Assembly: GCA_030747595.1 (NCBI GenBank)
Contig: JASLKK010000003.1
Span: 1-64,000 of the forward strand
DNA: 64,000 nucleotides
Direction of reading: 5' to 3'
From: Acidimicrobiales bacterium
Lineage (GTDB): Bacteria; Actinomycetota; Acidimicrobiia; Acidimicrobiales; MedAcidi-G1
The notes below the pieces were generated by a model. That model was not told the DNA's origin, did not search any database, and worked only from the letters and a program-made list of their open reading frames with translations. This document shows positions 51,624 to 63,771 of the stretch, in pieces (the first letter of the stretch is position 1; each line of letters begins with the position of its first letter). Made by a program: the position numbers and the translations under genes.

Positions 51624-51760
51624 CCGAGGGCCACCACCGGGTGGCCGGCCAGATGTCAGCGGGCCGTTGATATGCCAACGGTGACGGAGGACACGCGACC
51701 ACACCGCCGGGCAGGTAATCTTCCGTCTGCCCTTTGCCAGTGACGTCAGACGGAGCACCT

Positions 51761-52891
51761 GTGCCAACCCACGCCATTACGACGAAGTCAGCGCGACGAC
51801 TCGTGTCCGTCGACCGCTTCCTCACCTTCATCAGGGTCTTCTTGGTGACCGTGATCGTGGTCGGGTTCCTGGCCTTCATCTGGCAGCAGTTCGACGCCGA
51901 CAACCCGTTCGCCCAGTGGCGCAATCCCGGTGCCCGAGGTCTAACCGGCGACCAGTTCAAGGGCCTACTCATCTCCGGCCTCTCCCAGGGTTCGATGTAC
52001 GGCCTGATCGCCTTGGGCTACTCCATGGTCTACGGCGTGCTGGGCTTCATCAACTTCGCCCACGGTGAGGTGTTCATGGTGGGTGCCATGACCGGCTTCA
52101 TCGCCTCGGACAAGTTCCAGGCCAACGGGATGTGGGAGTCCAACTTCCTGCTCTGCCTGGCCCTGATCATCGTGATGGCCGTGTTCTTCTCAACGTTTAC
52201 CGCGGTGGTCATGGAGAGGGTGGCCTACCGGCCGCTTCGCAACTCGCCCCGCCTCATTCCGTTGATCACGTCGATTGGTGTGTCGTTCTTCATCCAGAAC
52301 TTCGTACTCGGTCTGTTCGGTCCGGCCACCAAGAGTTACCCCCGTCTCCCGGAGTGGTTGGCCAAGCAGCGGTCGATCCTGACGTTCGAGATCGCCGGAA
52401 CCCGCTTGCTGGTGTTGGTGGTGGCCGCCGTCTCGATGGCCGGACTCTGGTACATCGTCGAACGCACCAAGACCGGCAAGGCCATGCGAGCCGTCGCCGA
52501 GGACAAGGAGATCGCGTCCCTCATGGGGATTGACGTGAACCGCACCATCGTCACCACGTTCGCCGTGGGTGGCGCCATGGCCGGCGTGGGAGGGATCCTG
52601 TGGGGGCTCATGTTCCGGTCGGTGACCCATATGACCGGCTTCCTACCCGGCGTCAAGGCTTTCACTGCAGCGGTGGTCGGCGGCATCGGCAACCTGGGTG
52701 GCGCCATGGCCGGCGGCATCTCTCTGGGCTCAGCGGAGTCCATTGCTCCACTGGTCATCCTCGAACCGCTCGGCGTGCCGGGCGTGTCCCAGCTCAAGGA
52801 CGCGGTGGCCTTCACCGTGCTGGTCCTCGTGCTCCTGTTCAAGCCCTCCGGGCTCTTCGGAGAGCGGCTCTCATCGGAGGATCGGGCATGA
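51761..52891 (+). CDS. livH: Branched-chain amino acid ABC transporter permease LivH
   Basis: 376 aa. LISGLSQGSMYGLIALGYSMV and GVLGFINFAHGEVFMVGAM are the LivH signature; RTKTGKAMRAVAEDKEIASLMGI is the EAA-type loop that contacts the ATPase. One extra membrane helix (about 20-45) precedes the core. GTG 51761 has GGAG 6 bases upstream; TTG 51734 and GTG 51740 are alternatives. The ATGA overlap with livM shows coupling. Confidence 0.9.
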   Translation: MPTHAITTKSARRLVSVDRFLTFIRVFLVTVIVVGFLAFIWQQFDADNPFAQWRNPGARGLTGDQFKGLLISGLSQGSMYGLIALGYSMVYGVLGFINFAHGEVFMVGAMTGFIASDKFQANGMWESNFLLCLALIIVMAVFFSTFTAVVMERVAYRPLRNSPRLIPLITSIGVSFFIQNFVLGLFGPATKSYPRLPEWLAKQRSILTFEIAGTRLLVLVVAAVSMAGLWYIVERTKTGKAMRAVAEDKEIASLMGIDVNRTIVTTFAVGGAMAGVGGILWGLMFRSVTHMTGFLPGVKAFTAAVVGGIGNLGGAMAGGISLGSAESIAPLVILEPLGVPGVSQLKDAVAFTVLVLVLLFKPSGLFGERLSSEDRA

Positions 52892-54711
52892 GTACCTTGG
52901 CTGCACCCATGCCGTCCTCAGCTCTGGATCAGGACTGGCGAAAAGTTCTCCGATGGGGGTTCATCTGTGGCGGCGCCCTGATCGCCCTCTGCCTTGTCGG
53001 CATGCCCGTCGAGTTGGATCGCCGAGAAATCATCGAGCGGTACCTGAGTCTCGGCTACCTCTCAGTGGTGCTGGTCCCCCTCGTCATCGGCTGGGTATCT
53101 GCCAGTCAGGTCGTCCTTGAGGGCTTCGAGTCCCGCAAGCAGGGCCTGTTTGACCTTGTCACCGGTCTGGTGGTCGGCGTGATCGGCGGCGGGCTCCTGT
53201 CACTGCTCATGGTGGCGCTTGACACGTGGAACCTGCGGGACCCGCTGGTCAACTGGAGCCCCAAGCTCTTTCGATTCCTGACCTATGAGAACGGCATGGG
53301 CTTCGGTGCCGGTGCATGGATCGTGACCTGTGGGGTACTCGGCCTGGCTGGGGCGTCGTTGCACGTGGTGCCCCGCTTCGCCCGTCGCATCGTGGCCATC
53401 GTCATAATCGGATTGTTGTCCCTGTCGGTGCTGGAGGCTGCGGTTTCGGACGTCTCGGAGGGCTTCGGCCTGGAGTGGCTGACCGATCTGATCTACGCCA
53501 AGAAGGGTGGCCTGACCCTGACGTCGGCCTTCGTGGTCGGCGCCGTGATAGCCGTCGTGGCGGCGCTCACCGACGGCCGGGTCAAGGCGGTGACAAACCG
53601 GTACCGCGACATGGAGGGCGTCGAACGGCAGAAGACCTCCATGATCCTGTTTGCCGTGGTGGCCGTCCTGTGCATTGTCCTGCCGATGTTCCTCGGCAAG
53701 ATCATGAACGAACTGCTGGCCAACGTCGGACTCTTCCTGTTGCTGGCCCTCGGTCTGAACATCGTGGTCGGCCTGGCCGGCCTTCTCGATCTCGGCTACG
53801 TGGCCTTCTTCGCCGTCGGCGGCTACACGACCGCGGTGCTCACCTCACCAAACAGCCCGTGGTTCGCCCCTGAGCTGCACTTCGGATTCAGCCTCTTCTT
53901 CGTGGTGATCTTCGCCATCATCGTCGGCCTGGTCATTGGGGCGCCCGTCATCAGGATGCGCGGCGACTATCTGGCCATCGTGACCCTCGGCTTCGGCGAG
54001 ATCATCCGCCTGCTGTTCATGTCGGACTGGCTGGGCCCGTACTTCGGTGGCGCCCAGGGCATCACCAACGTGCCGGGCGTTGACCTGGGCTTCGCCATGG
54101 TGAAGGGCACCGACCCGAGGTCGGTCTTCTACCTGGTGTTGTTCTTCTCTGTGATCGCCATCTACGTGTCCTGGCGCCTGCAGGCGTCCCGCCTGGGTAG
54201 GGCCTGGATGGCCATCCGGGAGGACGAGCAGGTGGCCGAGGCCATGGGTATCAACACGGTGAGTGCCAAGTTGATGGCCTTCGTGGTGGGTGCCGTGCTG
54301 GCGGCCTTCAGCGGTGCCGTACTGGTGGCCAAGGTCGGCTCCGTGTTCCCGACCAGCTTCATGATCCTGATCTCGATCATCATCCTCGTGGTGGTGATCG
54401 TCGGCGGGATGGGCAACATCGCCGGCGTGATGGTCGGCTCGTTCGTCCTCATCGGCGTCCTTGGTGGGCCCAAGCAGCCCGGCCTGCTCCAGGAGTTCCA
54501 GAACTTCAAGCTGCTCATCTACGGGATGCTGCTCGTCTTCATGATGCTGAAGCGTCCGGAGGGCCTCGTGCCGAGCGCCCGCCGTAGTCGCGAGCTCCAC
54601 CAAGAAGAGTTCCTGCAGGACGCCTGGCTCAGGGGAGACAAACCCGGCATCGACGATGACGATGACGCGGCGCCCCTGCTAGTGGGCGACGGGGGAGGGG
54701 AGGAGGAATGA
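52888..54711 (+). CDS. livM: Branched-chain amino acid ABC transporter permease LivM, N-terminally extended
   Basis: 607 aa, far longer than usual LivM (about 320-420). The LivM core starts near residue 260: LLALGLNIVVGLAGLLDLGY, YLAIVTLGFGEIIRLLF, LGRAWMAIREDEQVAEAMGI, and VVVIVGGMGNIAGVMVGSF. The first 250 or so residues carry about six additional hydrophobic segments of no recognised family (for example LIALCLVGMPVELD, VVGVIGGGLLSLLMVAL). The C-terminus is acidic (DDDDDAAP). It overlaps livH and livG by 4 bases each. Confidence 0.88.
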   Translation: MSTLAAPMPSSALDQDWRKVLRWGFICGGALIALCLVGMPVELDRREIIERYLSLGYLSVVLVPLVIGWVSASQVVLEGFESRKQGLFDLVTGLVVGVIGGGLLSLLMVALDTWNLRDPLVNWSPKLFRFLTYENGMGFGAGAWIVTCGVLGLAGASLHVVPRFARRIVAIVIIGLLSLSVLEAAVSDVSEGFGLEWLTDLIYAKKGGLTLTSAFVVGAVIAVVAALTDGRVKAVTNRYRDMEGVERQKTSMILFAVVAVLCIVLPMFLGKIMNELLANVGLFLLLALGLNIVVGLAGLLDLGYVAFFAVGGYTTAVLTSPNSPWFAPELHFGFSLFFVVIFAIIVGLVIGAPVIRMRGDYLAIVTLGFGEIIRLLFMSDWLGPYFGGAQGITNVPGVDLGFAMVKGTDPRSVFYLVLFFSVIAIYVSWRLQASRLGRAWMAIREDEQVAEAMGINTVSAKLMAFVVGAVLAAFSGAVLVAKVGSVFPTSFMILISIIILVVVIVGGMGNIAGVMVGSFVLIGVLGGPKQPGLLQEFQNFKLLIYGMLLVFMMLKRPEGLVPSARRSRELHQEEFLQDAWLRGDKPGIDDDDDAAPLLVGDGGGEEE

Positions 54712-55490
54712 GCCTTCTCGAGATCAAGGACCTAAAGATCACCTTCGGTGGACTCGATGCCCTGTCGGGACTGAACTTCCATATCGACGAGGGCGAGATC
54801 GTCAGCGTGATTGGCCCCAACGGCGCCGGCAAGACGACCTTCTTCAACGCCATCTCAGGCCTGGTGACCCCCACTGAGGGCGACATCCTTTTCGAAGACG
54901 AGACGATCGTAGGGCTCGATCCCAGCACGGTGACATCACTCGGCATCGCCCGGACGTTCCAGAACGTTCGCTTGTTCCCCAACATGACCATCCTCGAAAA
55001 CGTGATGGTGGCCCAACACTGCCGGACCAGCCAGCTGGTCTACGGGGCGCTGCTCCAGACGAAGGCCTTCAAGCGCGAGGAGCGGGAGATCCGGGAGCGG
55101 GCCATCGAGGTCCTCGAGTTCTTCGGGCACCGCCTCGTCGGCTACCGGATGGACCAGCCGGCTTTCGCGCTGTCGTACGCCAACCGGCGCCGCCTCGAGA
55201 TCGCACGTGCCATGGCCACCCAGCCTCGCCTGCTACTGCTCGACGAACCGGTGGCCGGAATGAACCCGATAGAGACCGCGGAGTTGACTGCCCTGGTCGG
55301 TCGGCTCCGTACCGAGTGGGGCTTCACGATCATCATGATCGAACACGACATGAAGGTGGTACGTGACGTCTCGGACCGAGTCGTGGTTCTCGACCACGGG
55401 GTGCCCATTGCCCAGGGGTCCTACGACGAGGTGTCGACCAACCCGGACGTGGTGGAGGCCTACCTGGGTCGTCCCGTGGAGGCCAACTGA
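54708..55490 (+). CDS. livG: Branched-chain amino acid ABC transporter ATPase LivG
   Basis: 260 aa. Walker A GPNGAGKTTFFNAIS, LFPNMTILENVMV, signature-like ALSYANRRRLEIARAMA (degenerate for LSGGQ), Walker B LLLLDEPVAGMN, and the switch His in MIEHDMKVV. The altered signature is usual in LivG. It powers LivHM together with LivF. Confidence 0.9.
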   Translation: MSLLEIKDLKITFGGLDALSGLNFHIDEGEIVSVIGPNGAGKTTFFNAISGLVTPTEGDILFEDETIVGLDPSTVTSLGIARTFQNVRLFPNMTILENVMVAQHCRTSQLVYGALLQTKAFKREEREIRERAIEVLEFFGHRLVGYRMDQPAFALSYANRRRLEIARAMATQPRLLLLDEPVAGMNPIETAELTALVGRLRTEWGFTIIMIEHDMKVVRDVSDRVVVLDHGVPIAQGSYDEVSTNPDVVEAYLGRPVEAN

Positions 55491-56233
55491 TGAGCGAGAC
55501 CGCTTCCACCAACGGCGCCACGCCACTTCTCGAGTTCCGCCAGGTCAACACCCACTACGGCGCGGTCCACATCCTCAAGGACGTCGACCTGTCCATCTAC
55601 CCGGGTGAGCTGGTCTGCCTGCTGGGCGGCAATGCCTCGGGCAAGTCCACGACGCTCAAGACCCTGCTGGGTATGGTCACGCCGACGTCGGGCGAGGTGG
55701 TGCTGGACGGCGAGGTCGTCAACGACAAGCCGACCAGCTACCGGGTCATCAACGGCATCACGATGGTTCCCGAGAACCGCCGGCTCTTCAAGCGCCTGTC
55801 AGTCAAGGAGAACCTTGAGTTGGGGGCCTACCTCCGCAACGACAAGGACGGCATCGCCGAGGACCTCGAGAAGATCTATGACCTGTTCCCACGGGTCAAG
55901 GAGCGCCTCTCGCAGAAGTCCGGCACGTTGTCTGGCGGTGAGCAGCAGATGGTGGCCATTGGTCGTGCGCTCATGTCGCGCCCGCGGGTCCTGCTCATGG
56001 ATGAGCCGTCGATGGGTCTGGCCCCGGCACTCGTCCAGCAGAACTTTGAGCTGATCCAACAGATCCACGCCGACGGTACGGCCATCTTCATGGTGGAGCA
56101 GAACGCCAACATGGCGTTGTCCATTGCTGATCGGGGCTGGGTTCTCCAGACCGGCCGGGTGGTGCTCGACGACACTGCCGAGGCCCTGCTGGCCAATCCG
56201 GAACTGCGGGCCTCCTACCTTGGTGAAGGCTGA
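55490..56233 (+). CDS. livF: Branched-chain amino acid ABC transporter ATPase LivF
   Basis: 247 aa. Walker A reads GGNASGKSTTLKTL (Ala-Ser where GAG is common), VPENRRLFKRLSVKENLELGA, signature LSGGEQQMVAIGRAL, Walker B VLLMDEPSMGLAP, and FMVEQNANMALSIADR. It starts one base before the livG frame ends. The four Liv genes form a complete inner-membrane transporter, but no periplasmic-type binding protein gene lies beside them. Confidence 0.9.
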   Translation: MSETASTNGATPLLEFRQVNTHYGAVHILKDVDLSIYPGELVCLLGGNASGKSTTLKTLLGMVTPTSGEVVLDGEVVNDKPTSYRVINGITMVPENRRLFKRLSVKENLELGAYLRNDKDGIAEDLEKIYDLFPRVKERLSQKSGTLSGGEQQMVAIGRALMSRPRVLLMDEPSMGLAPALVQQNFELIQQIHADGTAIFMVEQNANMALSIADRGWVLQTGRVVLDDTAEALLANPELRASYLGEG

Positions 56234-56298: not shown

Positions 56299-57393
56299 TT
56301 GTGGACGGTCGGATCCGATGCCTACCCGAAACCCACCGCTGTGAGTTCTGTTGGCACCGGCCTGGCCCGGCGACCTCTTACCGTGATTACCGAACAGGCC
56401 TCGACTGTCGAAGCCGTCTGGGATGAGGGGCGACCCATCGTGGGTCCCGAGGTACTTGGTGAACTGCTTGGCTGGGAGTGGCGTGCCGAAGGCCTATGTC
56501 GTGAGACGGTTTGCGTTCCTGTCTCCGACCGCTCCCAGGTCGAAGACGTCGAAGGTATCGACATTCTGGCCGTCGCCAAGATATTGGACCGACCAACCGT
56601 GATAGACCCCGACGCCGGGCTACTGGTTGTTGGGCAACCCTCAGGTGACCGGCACGAAGTCCTTTACAAGCGCAGGGCCCCCGACTTCACGCTCCCTGAC
56701 CTGACGGGGTCGCTTCACTCTTTCTCCGACTGGGTAGGCCACAAACGGCTCCTGGTGGCCTTCGCTAGTTGGTGAGGATGCGCCTTTGACCTGCCCGGGT
56801 GGCAGGTGCTGCAAGACGAACTGGGCGACACGGGCTTTACGGTCATTGCGGTAGCTATCGACGAAGACGTCGACGCTCTCAAAGAGCTCGCTAAAGAGGT
56901 TTCCTACCCGGTCCTGGTCGATGCCGATCACCACCTCACCGAGTTGTACGCAATAAGCAACGTGCCAACTGTGGTCTGGGTGGACGAAGAGGACCAGATC
57001 GTCAGGCCGAATGCAGCAGAGTTCGGTACCGACACCTTCACCGAGCTGACCGGCATCCACTGCGAGGACCATTTCGAACTCGTACGAGCATGGGTCGGTG
57101 ACAGCCAGGTTCCCACCGATGCAAGTCACGCCGTGGCCGATCTGACCACCGACGAGGTGGAAGCTCGACTCCACTTCAGGCTCGCCGCGCACGCCCGTCG
57201 GGCCGGCCTATCCGATGTTGCTGACTCCCACTTCGATCAGGCAGCCGAGTTAACTCCCCTCGACTTCACGGTGGTGCGAGCAGCCATGCCTCTTCGCGGC
57301 GAAAACCCGTTCGGTCAAGAGTTCTTCGATCTCTACGGTGCCTACCGGGAAGCCGGATCGCCGTACCACGGAATCCCCAGAATCTCCGGCTGA
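56299..57393 (+). CDS. Redoxin/TlpA-like thioredoxin-fold protein, predicted selenoprotein (UGA at 56773)
   Basis: One reading frame of 365 codons interrupted only by TGA at 56773-56775. Upstream it encodes an N-terminal domain (about 30-125; LGWEWRAEGLCRETVCVPV), then the start of a redoxin fold, RRAPDFTLPDLTGS and HKRLLVAFASW. Immediately after the TGA, in frame, the fold continues: GCAFDLPGWQVLQDEL, FTVIAVAIDED, YPVLVDADHHLTELYAI, NVPTVVWVDEEDQIVRP. Relatives read ASWCGC at this site, so UGA replaces the first redox cysteine, giving W-Sec-G-C. A hairpin fitting the bacterial SECIS pattern follows. The start is uncertain: TTG 56299 has AAGG 6 bases upstream; GTG 56341 is an alternative. Sec is residue 159 from TTG 56299. 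Without Sec insertion only a 158-aa fragment lacking the active site would be made. The selenocysteine machinery is not in this window. Confidence 0.75.
56773..56807 (+). promoter_or_regulatory. Predicted bacterial SECIS element with its UGA
   Basis: After the UGA and 13 bases, ACCTGCC (56789-56795) pairs perfectly with GGCAGGT (56801-56807) around the five-base loop CGGGT. The apical loop begins 20 bases after the UGA and carries G in its first two positions, both within the rules known for bacterial SECIS elements (UGA-to-loop distance about 16-37 bases). Confidence 0.65.
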
Positions 57394-57401
57394 GGTCAGT
57401 T

Positions 57402-58478
57402 GTGGCGCTCAAGGTGGTGGTGTGGGGTACCGGAAATGTGGGCCGGCCAGCGATTCGGGCCGTTGTCGCACACCGCGGGTTGGAACTGGTCGGCGTGATC
57501 GTTGCCGACCCTGACAAGGTTGGTGTCGACGCCGGCGTCCTAGCTGGGATCGGGACCTTGGGGATCCAGGCAACCGACGAGGTTTGTATTGCTGAGGCTG
57601 ACGACGTTGACGCAGTGGTCTACGCCGTGAACGCCGACTTTCGCCCCGAAGCGTCCCTGGAGGAGGTGGAACGGGTGCTTGCCTCCGGCACCGACGTCGT
57701 CTCAACGGCATTCCATGGTTTGCTCCATCCACCGTCGGCGCCGGAACCACTCCGGTCTCGTGTGGTCAGGGCCTGCGTTGAAGGCGACAGCTCGATCTTG
57801 GTGTCGGGCATCGACCCTGGCTGGGTTCTTGACATCTTGCCGCTACTCCTGACCGGGGTTTGTGCCGACATCACCGAAGTACGGGCCCAAGAGATCGCCA
57901 ACTACACCGGTTATGACCAGCCTCAGGCGGTTCGGGACCTCTGCGGCTTTGGCCACCCGCTCGACTACCCAACTCCCATACTGAGCGAATACGGGCTAAT
58001 GACAGTCTGGGCCCCAATGATCCGGGTATTGGCCGATGGTCTAGACCTCAAACTGGACTCGATAACCACTGACACCGACCGTCGAGCTCTCGAACGAACC
58101 GTGCACGTGGACGGAATGGGTGAGTTCGAAGCTGGGACACAGGGCGCTTTTCGCTTCGAGGTGAACGGAGTCATAGGCGGACGGCCGGTTCTAGTAGCAG
58201 AGCACGTAACCAGGATTGACGACAGTTGTGCACCTGACTGGCCTCAGTCCAGTGCCGATGGTGGACTTCACCGCGTCGTGATTACCGGTAGGCCGAATCT
58301 GGCCGTCTCGGTCCACGGTGAAGATGCGTCAGATCCGGGTGCAGCAGCCGGAGGAAACACTCTGGCTGCCAACCGAATCGTCAACGCGATCCCGGCAGTA
58401 TGCGAAGGGGAGCCGGGGCCGATCCATCCCCTTGCTCTTCCGTCAATCGTCGGCTCCAGCCAACTTCGCCTGTCTTGA
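57402..58478 (+). CDS. NAD(P)H-dependent amine dehydrogenase-like oxidoreductase (DAPDH/DapB fold)
   Basis: 358 aa. The N-terminal Rossmann motif VVVWGTGNVGRPAIRAVV, then LELVGVIVADPDKVGVDAG, matches the family of 2,4-diaminopentanoate dehydrogenase and native amine dehydrogenases. SGIDPGWVLDILPLLLTGVC and AQEIANYTGYDQPQAVRDL continue it. It would interconvert an amine and its ketone with NAD(P); the substrate is unknown. GTG 57402 has GAGG 7 bases upstream, only 8 bases after the selenoprotein stop, so both form an operon. Base composition is less GC-rich than neighbouring genes. Confidence 0.75.
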   Translation: MALKVVVWGTGNVGRPAIRAVVAHRGLELVGVIVADPDKVGVDAGVLAGIGTLGIQATDEVCIAEADDVDAVVYAVNADFRPEASLEEVERVLASGTDVVSTAFHGLLHPPSAPEPLRSRVVRACVEGDSSILVSGIDPGWVLDILPLLLTGVCADITEVRAQEIANYTGYDQPQAVRDLCGFGHPLDYPTPILSEYGLMTVWAPMIRVLADGLDLKLDSITTDTDRRALERTVHVDGMGEFEAGTQGAFRFEVNGVIGGRPVLVAEHVTRIDDSCAPDWPQSSADGGLHRVVITGRPNLAVSVHGEDASDPGAAAGGNTLAANRIVNAIPAVCEGEPGPIHPLALPSIVGSSQLRLS

Positions 58479-58774: not shown

Positions 58775-58794
58775 AGTCCGACTGCAGTCGGGCT
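58775..58794. terminator. Palindrome at the 3' end of the DAO gene
   Basis: AGTCCGACTG (58775-58784) and CAGTCGGGCT (58785-58794) are inverted with no spacer and one G-U pair; the core is a perfect 14-bp palindrome. It abuts the stop codon of the minus-strand DAO gene. No T-run follows, so termination is uncertain. Confidence 0.4.
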
Positions 58795-60014
58795 TAGATG
58801 ATGGCTTTTTCAAGAAAGGGCTTTCCGGCCACGATGCGGTCGTGGCCCATCTGCGACAGGTCGATGGTGCGGTACTCGTTGTAGGTGATGAGTTCGTTGA
58901 GTGCCCGGCCCACCCCGGCGCTCTGCTGAAGGCCGTGGCCGCTGAACCCGTTGCAGAAGTAGAAGTTGGGAACCGCGCCGGCCGGACCGACCACGGCGTT
59001 GTGGTCCAGCGTGTTGTAGGCGTAGTGCCCGACCCACCGGTGGGTCACCCCAATGCGCTCAAAGGCCGGGATCCGGTGCACCAGGGCCGGCCAGATATGG
59101 TCCTCCCATTCAGCCTCGCGGACGGCGAAGTCCTCCGGATCCACCGCGATGTCGTCGACTGGTGGCATACCGGCCAGGTAGTGGGGTGGTTCGGTCCGTA
59201 CGTGCATCCCGGTGGTGTCGATGGTCAGCGGCAGGGTCGGGCCGTCCAGTGGGGTTCGGCAGTCGAACACCCAGGCACCCCGGATCCGGGGCTCGACGGG
59301 TAGCGGAAGGTCGACCAGGTCGGCCATCCAACGGGCCCTCGGACCGGTGCAGTTGACCACGCGGTCGCAGGCCACCACGGCTCCCGAGGCCATCTCCACG
59401 TGGGTTACCCGGTCGCGGGCCGGGGTGGTACGTAGTCCAATGACCCGGTCGGTGGCGTACTCCACGCCATTGTGTCGGGCTCGCTGCTGGAAGCCCCGCA
59501 TCAACGAGTAGGCGTCTAGCGTGCCCTCGTTGCGGAGGCCGAGGCTGGCACCGGCCAGATCGTCGATGTGCATGTACCCAAACCGGTCGGCCAACTCCCC
59601 GGGTGACAGCAGGGCCACTTCGGCTCCGCATGAACGTTGTGCCTCATGGTTCTCTCGCAGTACGTCCATGCCGTCGTCGGTGGCCAAGAACAGGTATCCG
59701 GTGTCCCGGAATCCGAGGTCCGGGGACTCGCCGCCCACCTGGACGTGTTGGTGGAACTCGGCGATGAACTCGGTAGCGAACATCGATAGGCGAATGTTGA
59801 CTGGCTCGGAGAACTGGTGTCGGACGCTGGCCTCCGACAGCGTGGTGGAGGCCCGTTCGTAGGTGGAGTCCATCTCTACGACCAGCACAGTCCCGTCGTA
59901 GTCGGGATTCTCCGAGAGCCAATAGGCCAGCGAGCTACCCATGACGGCACCGCCCACGATCACCGTGTCGTAGGCGGTTTCACGTGGTCCTCCGCCGCGA
60001 CCGGTCCCGGTCAC
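58794..60014 (-). CDS. FAD-dependent oxidoreductase of the DAO/sarcosine-oxidase family
   Basis: 406 aa. The N-terminal dinucleotide-binding VIVGGAVMGSSLAYWLSEN, RHQFSEPVNIRLSMFA, NEGTLDAYSLMRGFQQRA, VVNCTGPRARWMADLVDL and C-terminal NFYFCNGFSGHGLQQSAGVG are typical of DAO proteins such as FOXRED1, sarcosine and dimethylglycine oxidases. It would oxidise a secondary or primary amine carbon; an N-methyl substrate would release formaldehyde. Its start overlaps the hyuB stop by 4 bases, so it is the last gene of the operon. Confidence 0.85.
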   Translation of the reverse strand: MTGTGRGGGPRETAYDTVIVGGAVMGSSLAYWLSENPDYDGTVLVVEMDSTYERASTTLSEASVRHQFSEPVNIRLSMFATEFIAEFHQHVQVGGESPDLGFRDTGYLFLATDDGMDVLRENHEAQRSCGAEVALLSPGELADRFGYMHIDDLAGASLGLRNEGTLDAYSLMRGFQQRARHNGVEYATDRVIGLRTTPARDRVTHVEMASGAVVACDRVVNCTGPRARWMADLVDLPLPVEPRIRGAWVFDCRTPLDGPTLPLTIDTTGMHVRTEPPHYLAGMPPVDDIAVDPEDFAVREAEWEDHIWPALVHRIPAFERIGVTHRWVGHYAYNTLDHNAVVGPAGAVPNFYFCNGFSGHGLQQSAGVGRALNELITYNEYRTIDLSQMGHDRIVAGKPFLEKAII

Positions 60015-61615
60015 GTCACGTAGCCCTGCATCCGGTCGTCGTCGATGGCGTCGGGATCGCGTTCGGATGGGTTGCCGAGACCGCCGCCTCCCGGCAGTTC
60101 CAGCACCAGCGTTCGGCCTGGTGGTACAGGCTGCTTGCCCTTGGCGTCAAACGGTGTGTCGTCGTCGAGGTGTACGCCACCCGGTGCTCCATCGGAGCCG
60201 CCGCGGCGACCCCGAGCCGGGTTGGCGACCCGGTCGAACATGCATGACACGGAGATGTCGTAGCCGGCGGCCGGCCCGATCTCGATGACCTGCCCCAGGC
60301 CGCCCCGTTGGCGACCCTCGCCGCCCGAGTCCGGTCGTAGTTCCTTGCGCCATACCACGACCGGACCGGACTGTTCGGTCGCTTCGGCGGGCATGGTTCG
60401 CACTCCACTGGGAAACGCCGTGGCGCTGATGCCGTCCAGCGTGGGTCGAGCCCCCGTGCCGCCGCTGTTGAACATCAGCACCTCTCGGGGCGGAAGGCCC
60501 GACGACGGGTCCGACGCCCGGGCACTCACCTGGAAGTTCCAGAGGGCTCCGGCGCCCTCGGCGGGGACCACGTCGGGCAGGGCACTGGAAATTGCCCCAA
60601 GGCAGAGGTCGGTGACGAAGTGCCCGATGACGTGGCGCACCGCCACCGGTTCGGGATGCTTGGCGTTGAGGATGCAGCCCTCGGGGGCACTCACGGTGAA
60701 GGCGGCCAGCGACGCCCAGTTGGATGGCATCTCGGGGGCGAGGGCAACCAACATGGCGTAGGAGAAGTAGGCGTGGGCGTACGTCAACGGCACGTTCACG
60801 CCGTGGGCACAGGTTGGCGACGTTCCGGTGAAGTCGGCGTGCACTTCGCTTCCCTCTGCCGTCAACGTCACCGCCAGGTCGATCGAGTCGTTGTAGCCGT
60901 CGACCCGCATCACATTGGTGTACGTCCCGGCTGGGAGGTTGGCGAGCCGTTCCCGGGTGGCCGTGGCTGTCCGGTCAAAGACGAAGGACGCCAGGTCCTC
61001 GAGGTCGTCAATGGCGAATTCGTCGAGCATGGCGTGTAGTCGCCGGGCTCCCGTGTCGTTACAGCCCGACAGCGAGTACAAGTCGCCGACCACCTGTCCG
61101 GCCTCGCGCACGTTGTGGCGCACGATGTTCAACAGGTCCTCGTTGACCACGCCCCGCTCGGCGAACTTCATGATGGGGACGAACAGTCCCTCCTCGTAGA
61201 CCTCGGTGGCGTCGGGGCCGTAGCCCCGTCCGCCCACATCGACCACGTGGGCCGTGCAGGCGAAGTAGCCGATGAGGGCGCCGGCCCGGAACACCGGGTC
61301 CACGACCGTGAAGTCATGCAGGTGGCCGGTGCCCTTCCACGGGTCGTTGGTGACGTACGAGTCGCCCTCGTAGATGCGATGTGGGCCGATGTCCTCGATG
61401 AAGTTGGCCACTGCGGCAGCCATTGTGTTCACGTGGCCGGGCGTGCCGGTCACCGCCTGGGCGATCATCCGGCCCTGCACGTCGTAGACGCCGGCTGACA
61501 GGTCGCCCGCCTCGCGCACGCTGGTCGAAAATGCGGTCCGTACCAGCGCTAGGGCTTGTTCCTCGACAATGGAGATCAGGCGGTTCCACATGACCTGATG
61601 GCGAAGCTCGCTCAT
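60011..61615 (-). CDS. hyuB: Hydantoinase/oxoprolinase subunit B
   Basis: 534 aa, usual length. RHQVMWNRLISIVEEQALAL, FSTSVREAGDLSAGVYDVQG, YVTNDPWKGTGHLHDFTVV, VPLTYAHAYFSYAM, and C-terminal LVLELPGGGGLGNPSERDPD are the HyuB/acetone-carboxylase-beta-like signature. With HyuA it hydrolyses a cyclic imide or lactam (N-methylhydantoin, hydantoin or 5-oxoproline) using ATP. It overlaps hyuA and the DAO gene by 4 bases each. Confidence 0.9.
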   Translation of the reverse strand: MSELRHQVMWNRLISIVEEQALALVRTAFSTSVREAGDLSAGVYDVQGRMIAQAVTGTPGHVNTMAAAVANFIEDIGPHRIYEGDSYVTNDPWKGTGHLHDFTVVDPVFRAGALIGYFACTAHVVDVGGRGYGPDATEVYEEGLFVPIMKFAERGVVNEDLLNIVRHNVREAGQVVGDLYSLSGCNDTGARRLHAMLDEFAIDDLEDLASFVFDRTATATRERLANLPAGTYTNVMRVDGYNDSIDLAVTLTAEGSEVHADFTGTSPTCAHGVNVPLTYAHAYFSYAMLVALAPEMPSNWASLAAFTVSAPEGCILNAKHPEPVAVRHVIGHFVTDLCLGAISSALPDVVPAEGAGALWNFQVSARASDPSSGLPPREVLMFNSGGTGARPTLDGISATAFPSGVRTMPAEATEQSGPVVVWRKELRPDSGGEGRQRGGLGQVIEIGPAAGYDISVSCMFDRVANPARGRRGGSDGAPGGVHLDDDTPFDAKGKQPVPPGRTLVLELPGGGGLGNPSERDPDAIDDDRMQGYVT

Positions 61616-63771
61616 GGCGTGACCTCCCCGTTCCGAGGAGTCGCCCGTGTTACCAGCAGACAGCCGTCCGGCTGCATGACGGCCTGCTGGCGCGATGACA
61701 GCAGCGTCGTGGTCTGGGTTTCGACGATGACGGCCGGGCCGACCAGCCGATCCCCAGCGGCCAGGTCGTCGCGTTCGATGACCCCGGCCGGCTGGGTGGT
61801 GCCGGTGGCTGTGTCGTGGATGGGGCGGGTGCGGTCCGGGGTGATCTCCCGGACTGCGGCCATCCGCTCAACATGGTTGACCGGGGGTTGCGGGGTGGAC
61901 ACCCGAACCGACCAGCCGATGGCTTCAACGGCCAGGCCGGCAATGGCCCGGCCGAAGAACTCCTCGTAGGCCTTCTCGAACCGATTGGCCAGTAGTTCGC
62001 CGCCCACTGCGTCAAATGGGGCGGCGTCGACAGGCACAGGGATCTCCCACCCCTGCCCTGCGTAGCGCATGTAGGCCCACCGCTCGGTTTCCAGCGTCAC
62101 GTCGGCCACCGAAGCTCCGGTCGAGGCCAGCGCTTCGGACACGAAGGCGGTGGCCTCGTCGGCCAGGTCCACCAACATGGCGTTGACGGCTCCCGGATCG
62201 AACTGATCGATGGCGGCGTGATGGCTGCGTAGTGCCTCGTAGGCGAACGGGGCTCGCAGGAAGCCGATGGCCGACCCAACGCTGGCACCTGGCGGCACCA
62301 GCAGTTCGTCCACGTCAAGCTTTTCGCAGAGCCGTCCGGCGTGGAGGGGAGCCCCACCGCCGAAGGCGATCACGGTGAAAGCGGCGACGTCCTTGCCGTT
62401 TTCGACGGCGTGTACGCGGGCTGCGTTGGCCATGTTCTCGTCGACGACCTCAGCCACGCCTGCGGCTGCTGTTTCGGCGTCCATGGCCAGTGCGGAGCCG
62501 ACCGTGCGATTCAGCGCGTCCCGGGCTGCCTCGTCGTCCAGGTCGATACCGGGAGCCCCGAACGTGTCGGCCGACAGGCGACCCAGCACCAGGTTGGCGT
62601 CGCTGACCGTGGGTTCGACGCCGCCCAGCCCGTAGGCCGCCGGCCCGGGTTCCGATCCCGCACTCAGTGGCCCCACCCGAATCTGGCCCAGTACGTCGAC
62701 CGTGGCGATCGACCCGCCACCGGCCCCGATTTCGATCATCTCGATGACGGGGATGGAGATGGGCATGCCACTGCCCTTGGTGAAGCGGTGGGTGCGGGCC
62801 ACTTCGAACGTCTTGGCCGTGCGAGGCATCTGGTCTTCGATCAGGCAGATCTTTGCTGTGGTGCCACCCATGTCGTACGACAGCACCCGATCGAGGCCGT
62901 GTCGGGCTGCGATGTCCGCTGCGAAGATCGCTCCACCGGCCGGGCCGGATTCCACGAGTCGCACAGGGAATCGGGCTGCCCCGTCGACGTTGATGAGCCC
63001 GCCGCCCGAGTGGATGAGGTACACGGGGCACGTGGCGCCGGTCTCGAGTAACTGGGCTTCGAGGTTTCGCAGGTATGTGGCGATGAGTGGTTGAACGTAG
63101 GCGTTGGCGCACACCGTGTTGAACCGCTCGAACTCCCGCATCTGGGGGGCAACCTCCGACGAGATCGACACCGGCACGTCGGGGAGGCGTTCCACCAGAA
63201 GGTCGCGGAAGCGGCGCTCATGGCTGCCGTCCACGTAGGCATGGATGAAGCCGACGGCGATGGCCTCGTAGGCCTCGTCGTCGGGACGGTCGGCCAGTAC
63301 TTCGATGAGCGCCCGTGCCTCGTCCTCGTCGAATGGACGGAGCACCGTCCCGTCTGCTGCGATGCGTTCCCGTAGGACATGGCGGTCCCGGCGTTCGATG
63401 AGCGCGGCGGGTAACACGAGGTTCAGGTCGTACTGCTCGAATCGACTCTCGGTACGCATTTCGATGGTGTCGCGGAAGCCGTCGGTGGTGACCAGCGCCG
63501 TGCGGGCCCCGGTGCGGCCGATCAGGGCGTTGGTGGCGAGCGTCGTCCCGTGGATGAAGGTGTCCAGGTCAGCGAGGTCAGCGCCCGCTTCAGCCACCAC
63601 AGTGGCCACGCCGTCGAGGATGCCCCGCTCAGGGGCGTCATAGGTGGTGAGGACCTTGGTGGAGAACATCCGCCCCTCGGACCCGTCGCCCTGACCCTCC
63701 TCGCGGTCCAGTTCAAGTACGACGTCGGTAAACGTTCCTCCGACGTCGGCGCCGATCCGCATGCTTCCCAT
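61612..63771 (-). CDS. hyuA: Hydantoinase/oxoprolinase subunit A
   Basis: 719 aa. RIGADVGGTFTDVVLELD is the ASKHA-type ATP loop at the N-terminus. FIHGTTLATNALIGRTGART, SSEVAPQMREFERFNTVCAN, LSYDMGGTTAKICLIED, IGAGGGSIATVD and TVIAFGGGAPLHAGRLCEKL complete it. ATG 63771 has GAGG 8 bases upstream. The pair's substrate cannot be fixed from sequence; the sarcosine-oxidase-like partner favours N-methylhydantoin (inference). Confidence 0.9.
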   Translation of the reverse strand: MGSMRIGADVGGTFTDVVLELDREEGQGDGSEGRMFSTKVLTTYDAPERGILDGVATVVAEAGADLADLDTFIHGTTLATNALIGRTGARTALVTTDGFRDTIEMRTESRFEQYDLNLVLPAALIERRDRHVLRERIAADGTVLRPFDEDEARALIEVLADRPDDEAYEAIAVGFIHAYVDGSHERRFRDLLVERLPDVPVSISSEVAPQMREFERFNTVCANAYVQPLIATYLRNLEAQLLETGATCPVYLIHSGGGLINVDGAARFPVRLVESGPAGGAIFAADIAARHGLDRVLSYDMGGTTAKICLIEDQMPRTAKTFEVARTHRFTKGSGMPISIPVIEMIEIGAGGGSIATVDVLGQIRVGPLSAGSEPGPAAYGLGGVEPTVSDANLVLGRLSADTFGAPGIDLDDEAARDALNRTVGSALAMDAETAAAGVAEVVDENMANAARVHAVENGKDVAAFTVIAFGGGAPLHAGRLCEKLDVDELLVPPGASVGSAIGFLRAPFAYEALRSHHAAIDQFDPGAVNAMLVDLADEATAFVSEALASTGASVADVTLETERWAYMRYAGQGWEIPVPVDAAPFDAVGGELLANRFEKAYEEFFGRAIAGLAVEAIGWSVRVSTPQPPVNHVERMAAVREITPDRTRPIHDTATGTTQPAGVIERDDLAAGDRLVGPAVIVETQTTTLLSSRQQAVMQPDGCLLVTRATPRNGEVTP

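Follow-up and report, generated by a model that had tools for sequence, protein, structure and literature searches.

The plus-strand frame 56299-57393 of a 64,000-nucleotide stretch of Acidimicrobiales DNA (contig JASLKK010000003.1; hereafter, the window) raises the question of whether its sole internal stop, a TGA at 56773-56775 (residue 159), terminates translation or is read as selenocysteine (Sec). The original prediction, made from the letters alone, had recognized a single frame with this one TGA, and the frame was recovered as described. The conservation of the UGA, the exchange between Sec and Cys among the relatives, the selection on the hairpin that follows, the constraint on the downstream half and the presence of the sel genes together point to a bacterial selenoprotein, and it is very probable that UGA 56773 would be translated as Sec by way of SelB, tRNA-Sec and a bacterial SECIS element (bSECIS), the product being a ResA-like Sec-Gly-Cys oxidoreductase.

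The TTG at 56299 is only an upstream limit for the start, since the sequence is conserved between genera only from about residue 27 onwards (conserved coding from near 56377), and the gene closes with the TGA at 57391-57393. The UGA is the first residue of the Sec-Gly-Cys site, in the motif AFASW-U-GCAFDLPGW. A Redoxin/AhpC-TSA domain is found above the cut-off with both profiles (PF08534, 49.5 bits; PF00578, 46.4 bits against a cut-off of 26), and the Redoxin match covers residues 126-242, spanning the UGA, in keeping with the predicted continuity of the thioredoxin fold on both sides of the codon; because this match crosses the UGA and TGA occupies the same codon in 41 of 149 genomes, the 205 codons 3′ of it are not a product of chance. 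The AF2 model of the selenoprotein has a mean pLDDT of 94.8. Its thioredoxin-fold domain (56650-57105) is of the ResA/DsbE/TlpA type, and ResA and DsbE structures in the PDB match residues 92-243 (the 11 best rows having Z 14.0-15.4 and 2.0-2.3 Å across 133-138 residues). It is followed by a C-terminal helical region (57112-57351; helices 247-325 in the model), TPR-like by profile and matching consensus-TPR chains, and preceded by an N-terminal domain (56377-56652) that gave no Pfam match at E 0.1 in the window protein and, in the other 31 rows, two weak Pfam matches (best 0.019). When the N-terminal 92 residues were modelled alone, pLDDT reached 92.5 (77 to 92.5 across five models); the best Foldseek E was 0.64, and the best Z against the PDB was 5.0, to usher N-domains, a value that is not meaningful. 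In 61 genomes, this domain was found only at the places of the selenoprotein family, one short match (G063:C98) excepted. It carries an invariant CX4C pair (GLCxxxxCVP, 56497-56514, with Cys codons 56497-56499 and 56512-56514; 50/50 and 32/32 aligned rows), and Cys41 and Cys46, the Sec/Cys position 133, Gly134 and Cys135 (56779-56781), all numbered from 56377, are invariant in 50/50 rows. Inspection of the window protein by eye showed no export signal.

Homologues were searched in 149 genomes, the source genome included; 96 had a hit at E ≤ 0.001, in many cases a weak one to another redoxin, and the 41 with a window-type homologue and TGA at the same codon include one (G001) cut by a contig end. 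This codon was TGA in all of the 30 best loci (one with an extra TAA, one cut by a contig end), and among 40 further loci the site was shown in 38, as TGA in 34 and as TGC or TGT in 4. A scan of GTDB contigs, from which the best 80 of 568 confirmed stretches were taken as named loci, gave sequences titled mostly Acidimicrobiia or Actinomycetota, with 53 TGA, 17 TGC and 9 TGT, and one that ends before the site. After pooling and removal of copies, the distinct relatives, from two subfamilies and with the GTDB share being the best 80 of 568, number 124, of which 95 have TGA and 29 TGC or TGT; the latter mostly read [TAV][FW][AS][ST]WCGC, which bears out the placement of the TGA at the first Cys of a WCGC motif. 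Within the window's genus the gene is patchy, with 8 of 16 genomes carrying it; of 396 genomes drawn from the phylum, 22 gave a match to the family at E ≤ 1e-25. One orthologue (L024, G008:C44) has an extra in-frame TAA at 2347, in its C-terminal part, besides the Sec UGA, and L106 is alike; these are either decaying copies or assembly errors. Loci titled Euryarchaeota (L093) and Bifidobacterium breve (L153) have Acidimicrobiia rows as their neighbours in the tree; our guess is that they may be mis-binned contigs.

A pseudogene, or a sequencing or assembly error, in which the TGA would be either a genuine nonsense mutation or a TGC/TGT read wrongly, could account for a lone stop in an otherwise open frame and for the Cys found at the site in 29 of the 124 relatives; nevertheless, 95 distinct genes share a TGA at this codon, which refutes it for the family as a whole. 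The downstream half of the relatives is kept and constrained rather than decayed, with dN/dS of 0.08-0.12 3′ of the UGA and 0.14-0.27 5′ of it in comparisons with close relatives (three full-length, one truncated), and the codon choice in the hairpin described below would be expected only with recoding, which leaves this explanation highly improbable. The same low probability is given to the UGA as a real stop that separates two proteins, the second being made by restart at, for instance, GTG 56806, which does open an ORF (56806-57393); the codon at this position in relatives is, however, mostly Ala, Glu, Thr or Val and seldom a start codon, a break here would split the thioredoxin fold, and the Cys relatives have a single open frame.

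The hairpin ACCUGCC-CGGGU-GGCAGGU on the plus strand (stem 56789-56795/56801-56807, loop 56796-56800) has 7 bp and a 5-nt loop that lies 20 nt from the UGA. The bSECIS rule, as set out in the corresponding passage of PMC13188914, includes a loop of 3-9 nt, a stem of 4-16 bp, G in the first two loop positions, a spacing of 16-37 nt and an MFE ≤ -7.5, and the window's hairpin falls within it, with 5 nt, 7 bp, G at loop position 2, 20 nt and -12.2 kcal/mol for the hairpin alone. The stem, spacing and agreement with the rule had thus been anticipated correctly; the claim of G in both of the first two loop positions was mistaken, the loop being C-G-G-G-U with only the second of these a G. Folding of the RNA after the UGA, which had been suggested as a check, gave a divided result: the excised 21-nt hairpin (-12.2 kcal/mol) has a z of -3.1, as a piece chosen after the fact, and the hairpin also forms in a 47-nt piece with a z of only -0.4, but the minimum of a 71-nt piece lies in another register (z -1.6). 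Of two further stretches folded, those of L049 and L054, both picked by hand, the L049 one falls upstream of the hairpin position and was left out of account. Longer pieces being unremarkable, folding energy is weak evidence for the hairpin, and the case for it rests on comparison.

For this comparison, the hairpin RNA encodes the peptide DLPGWQ, and most Cys genes encode the identical peptide, so that they serve as a control for selection at the RNA level. Much of the stem is kept in the Cys genes because a similar peptide is encoded, so that it is the synonymous positions that are informative. With the G of GAC numbered 1, Watson-Crick pairs were counted at 4-18, 5-17, 6-16, 7-15 and 8-14 in 94, 94, 93, 95 and 95 of the 95 Sec genes (pair 6-16 being missing in two), vs 28, 29, 19, 26 and 26 of the 29 Cys genes; in the Sec genes, pair 3-19 is Watson-Crick in 83/95 (90/95 counting wobble), and at the outer position 2-20 a standard pair occurs in just 9 of 64 Sec loci. 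The third base of the Leu codon, which contributes to pair 6-16, is G in 62/64 Sec loci, where 27.7 would be expected given the codons of these genes; the AT-rich Sec loci show it too (12 of 13), and with copies removed the figures are 92/95 Sec vs 19/29 Cys genes. The loop pair 9-12 (56796-56799 in the window) is Watson-Crick in 61/64 Sec loci, against 21.7 expected in the same way, this 64-locus codon test comprising both subfamilies and near copies; with copies removed, it is Watson-Crick in 87/95 Sec genes, being absent from 8, vs 10/29 Cys genes (14/29 with wobble), and within the LPG context in 68/76 Sec vs 8/25 Cys genes. There, the Sec genes use CCC-GGG (51), CCA-GGT (17), CCA-GGC (7) and CCA-GGG (1), and the Cys genes a mix of nine codon pairs. 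All six inner pairs, from 4-18 to 9-12, are Watson-Crick in 85/95 Sec vs 7/29 Cys genes. Fisher tests of hairpin pairing between Sec and Cys genes gave p values of 7e-8 and 2e-5, with related genes treated as independent.

Covariation on the tree points in the same direction. For pair 9-12, the Sec rows require no fewer than 15 switches of pair type, position 9 having changed 9 times and position 12 15 times, and compensatory changes in the stem of Sec genes comprise U-A for C-G in L054, L081, L087 and L110, and C-G for G-C in L055. In tree-independent pairs, the hairpin never changed in the opposite way; since only two of the four Sec/Cys switches are supported, significance is out of reach for this kind of test. 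These comparisons indicate that the hairpin is under selection at the RNA level. Sec and Cys genes encoding the same LPGWQ peptide form a naturally occurring control, in which the bases of a bacterial SECIS under RNA-level selection stand out. The tip of the element would be a covarying base pair that encloses G-[G/U]. In the bSECIS model of PMC13188914, as drawn there with one more loop base, a pair already flanks G-[G/U] in the apical loop, so that the loop pair found here would be a strong instance of that model and no new element.

The original prediction made its reading dependent on SelA, SelB, SelC and SelD, and all four were found in the source genome (2.46 Mb in 84 contigs, 96% complete), as expected of a Sec-decoding host: a tRNA-Sec (66.9 bits; tRNA-SeC with anticodon TCA by ARAGORN), SelB (266.5 bits, above the cut-off, in an open frame of 573 aa), an adjoining SelA (398 bits) and SelD (357.5 bits). 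The SelD gene (L042 1225-2532, G000:C4) holds an in-frame UGA of its own, in HGAG-U-GCK, and SelD itself is therefore probably a selenoprotein; Sec-containing SelD is a known type. Of the 57 genomes that carry a Sec homologue from one or other subfamily, 56 had tRNA-Sec or SelB above the cut-off and 48 had both, vs tRNA-Sec or SelB in 53 of the 92 others (52/88 without either form; Fisher p 3e-9, related genes treated as independent). The exception, G038, has a UGA gene and neither tRNA-Sec nor SelB above the cut-off in a genome that is 69% complete. Of four Cys-form genomes tested, three have neither tRNA-Sec nor SelB, and G092 has a tRNA-Sec yet the Cys form; of the 26 named Cys loci, at least L146 lies on the same 36156-base contig as the tested L049. 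As to the insertion of an amino acid other than Sec, through a reassigned code or near-cognate readthrough, nothing beyond the open frame favours it, and it is the least probable of the three alternatives, since TGA terminates the selenoprotein gene, the upstream ABC-transporter ATPase ORF and the downstream ORF, as in the standard genetic code, the UGA swaps only with Cys codons in the loci examined (26/26 non-TGA codons were TGC/TGT in a search that allowed any residue, the motif pattern of the other counts allowing stop or Cys only), and the genome encodes tRNA-Sec(UCA), SelA, SelB and SelD.

Under the selenoprotein reading, SelB and tRNA-Sec would decode UGA 56773 as Sec, guided by the bSECIS hairpin at 56789-56807, to give a putative thiol-disulfide oxidoreductase whose thioredoxin fold is ResA-like and in which a shortened Sec-Gly-Cys site replaces CxxC. 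In such an enzyme, Sec would attack as the nucleophile, and the Cys two residues on (56779-56781) is likely the resolving residue, forming a selenenylsulfide. The invariant CX4C pair of the N-terminal domain may exchange electrons with the Sec-Gly-Cys site in either direction, and it is as possible that it serves as a metal site or structural disulfide as that it is a redox partner pair. Sec insertion, redox chemistry and localisation are all deduced here from sequence.

The selenoprotein gene is followed on the plus strand by an ORF (57402-58478) that matches DapB_N and DAP_DH_C, with which it is perhaps co-transcribed. This ORF had been taken for an amine dehydrogenase of the same operon; it does follow and is dehydrogenase-like, but its resemblance to 2,4-diaminopentanoate dehydrogenase (94.7 bits) is far under the curated cut-off of 400, and it is present in only 7 of the 80 named loci, belonging to part of the window's genus or to one other genus, with some loci too short to show it. 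Elsewhere, the recurrent neighbours vary by lineage and include acyl-CoA dehydrogenase, Mur ligase-like, MFS, P450, ECH and sulfatase-type domains (from a search of 9 proteins, 2 of which matched no domain), and context therefore gives no function. ABC-transporter genes lie directly 5′ of the selenoprotein gene (51734-56233), of the branched-chain amino-acid type by eye; the last ORF, the only one of this region searched, matches ABC_tran, and these genes occur at high identity in close relatives only. The minus strand at 58794-63771 holds an FAD-dependent oxidoreductase (DAO match) and two large ORFs that resemble hydantoinase A/B subunits. A search of a plasmid collection gave no match.

Annotation that ends genes at UGA would yield only fragments of this gene and of its relatives. 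As the nearest curated model, NCBIfam NF041054 (WAxxUGC_long), does not reach the clade either, a model made for the latter would recover the selenoprotein in many uncultured Acidimicrobiia. Apart from these consequences for annotation, the recognition of a selenoprotein gene from the bare letters was correct in this case.

Regarding its place among known families, the claim that the selenoprotein is new was not sustained. UGC-containing Prx-like or TlpA disulfide reductase family selenoproteins appear in the tables of PMC2398784 (2008), PMC9312934 (2022) and PMC13188914 (2026), and the row of the first reads 46, 15, 855, of which 46 are taken as selenoprotein and 855 as Cys sequences. This published family, from marine metagenomes, shares with the window protein a pfam00578-type thioredoxin fold and the U-G-C motif, as judged from the table rows; the published passages on the Prx-like (UGC-containing) family make no mention of the CX4C N-terminal domain or of the Sec/Cys history. 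The reviews give MDE0950781.1 and MBL6689828.1 as accessions. The name WAxxUGC was not found in a literature search, and by title nothing related was found on selenoproteins in Acidimicrobi-. NF041054, which describes a ResA-like WAxxUGC motif-containing protein, is a sister model: the window protein aligns with it over model positions 9-202, sharing the N-terminal CX4C and the UGC site, and scores 189.4 bits (161.8 for the genome match), below the cut-off of 300. NF041054 matches above the cut-off occur in 21 of the 149 genomes, and several genomes carry both this family and a window-type gene. In contrast to this likeness, the window clade is separate in the tree (99% SH-aLRT, quick method). 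It holds 101 rows, 72 Sec and 29 Cys, with 4 Sec/Cys changes, 2 of them forced by starred branches of this quick tree; the NF041054 clade holds 23 rows, 20 genes over the cut-off and three below, all Sec. Sec to Cys is the simpler direction, since Sec occurs in both clades, the tree itself giving no direction. A more tentative proposal, and one that we consider rather unlikely, is that of a distinct selenoenzyme subfamily, mainly of Acidimicrobiia, in which the orphan CX4C domain and the Sec-Gly-Cys site would make up a self-contained selenium-dependent electron relay, with conversion to Cys on more than one occasion upon loss of the Sec machinery. ResA, TlpA and DsbE proteins are exported and have a CxxC active site. 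The window protein shares their thioredoxin fold (the Z of 14.0-15.4 over 133-138 residues given above), but differs from them in its UxC site, which is CxC in the Cys forms, in its extra N- and C-terminal domains and in the lack of a signal seen by eye. In summary, the gene represents a clade of a known kind of selenoprotein that lies outside the nearest curated model.
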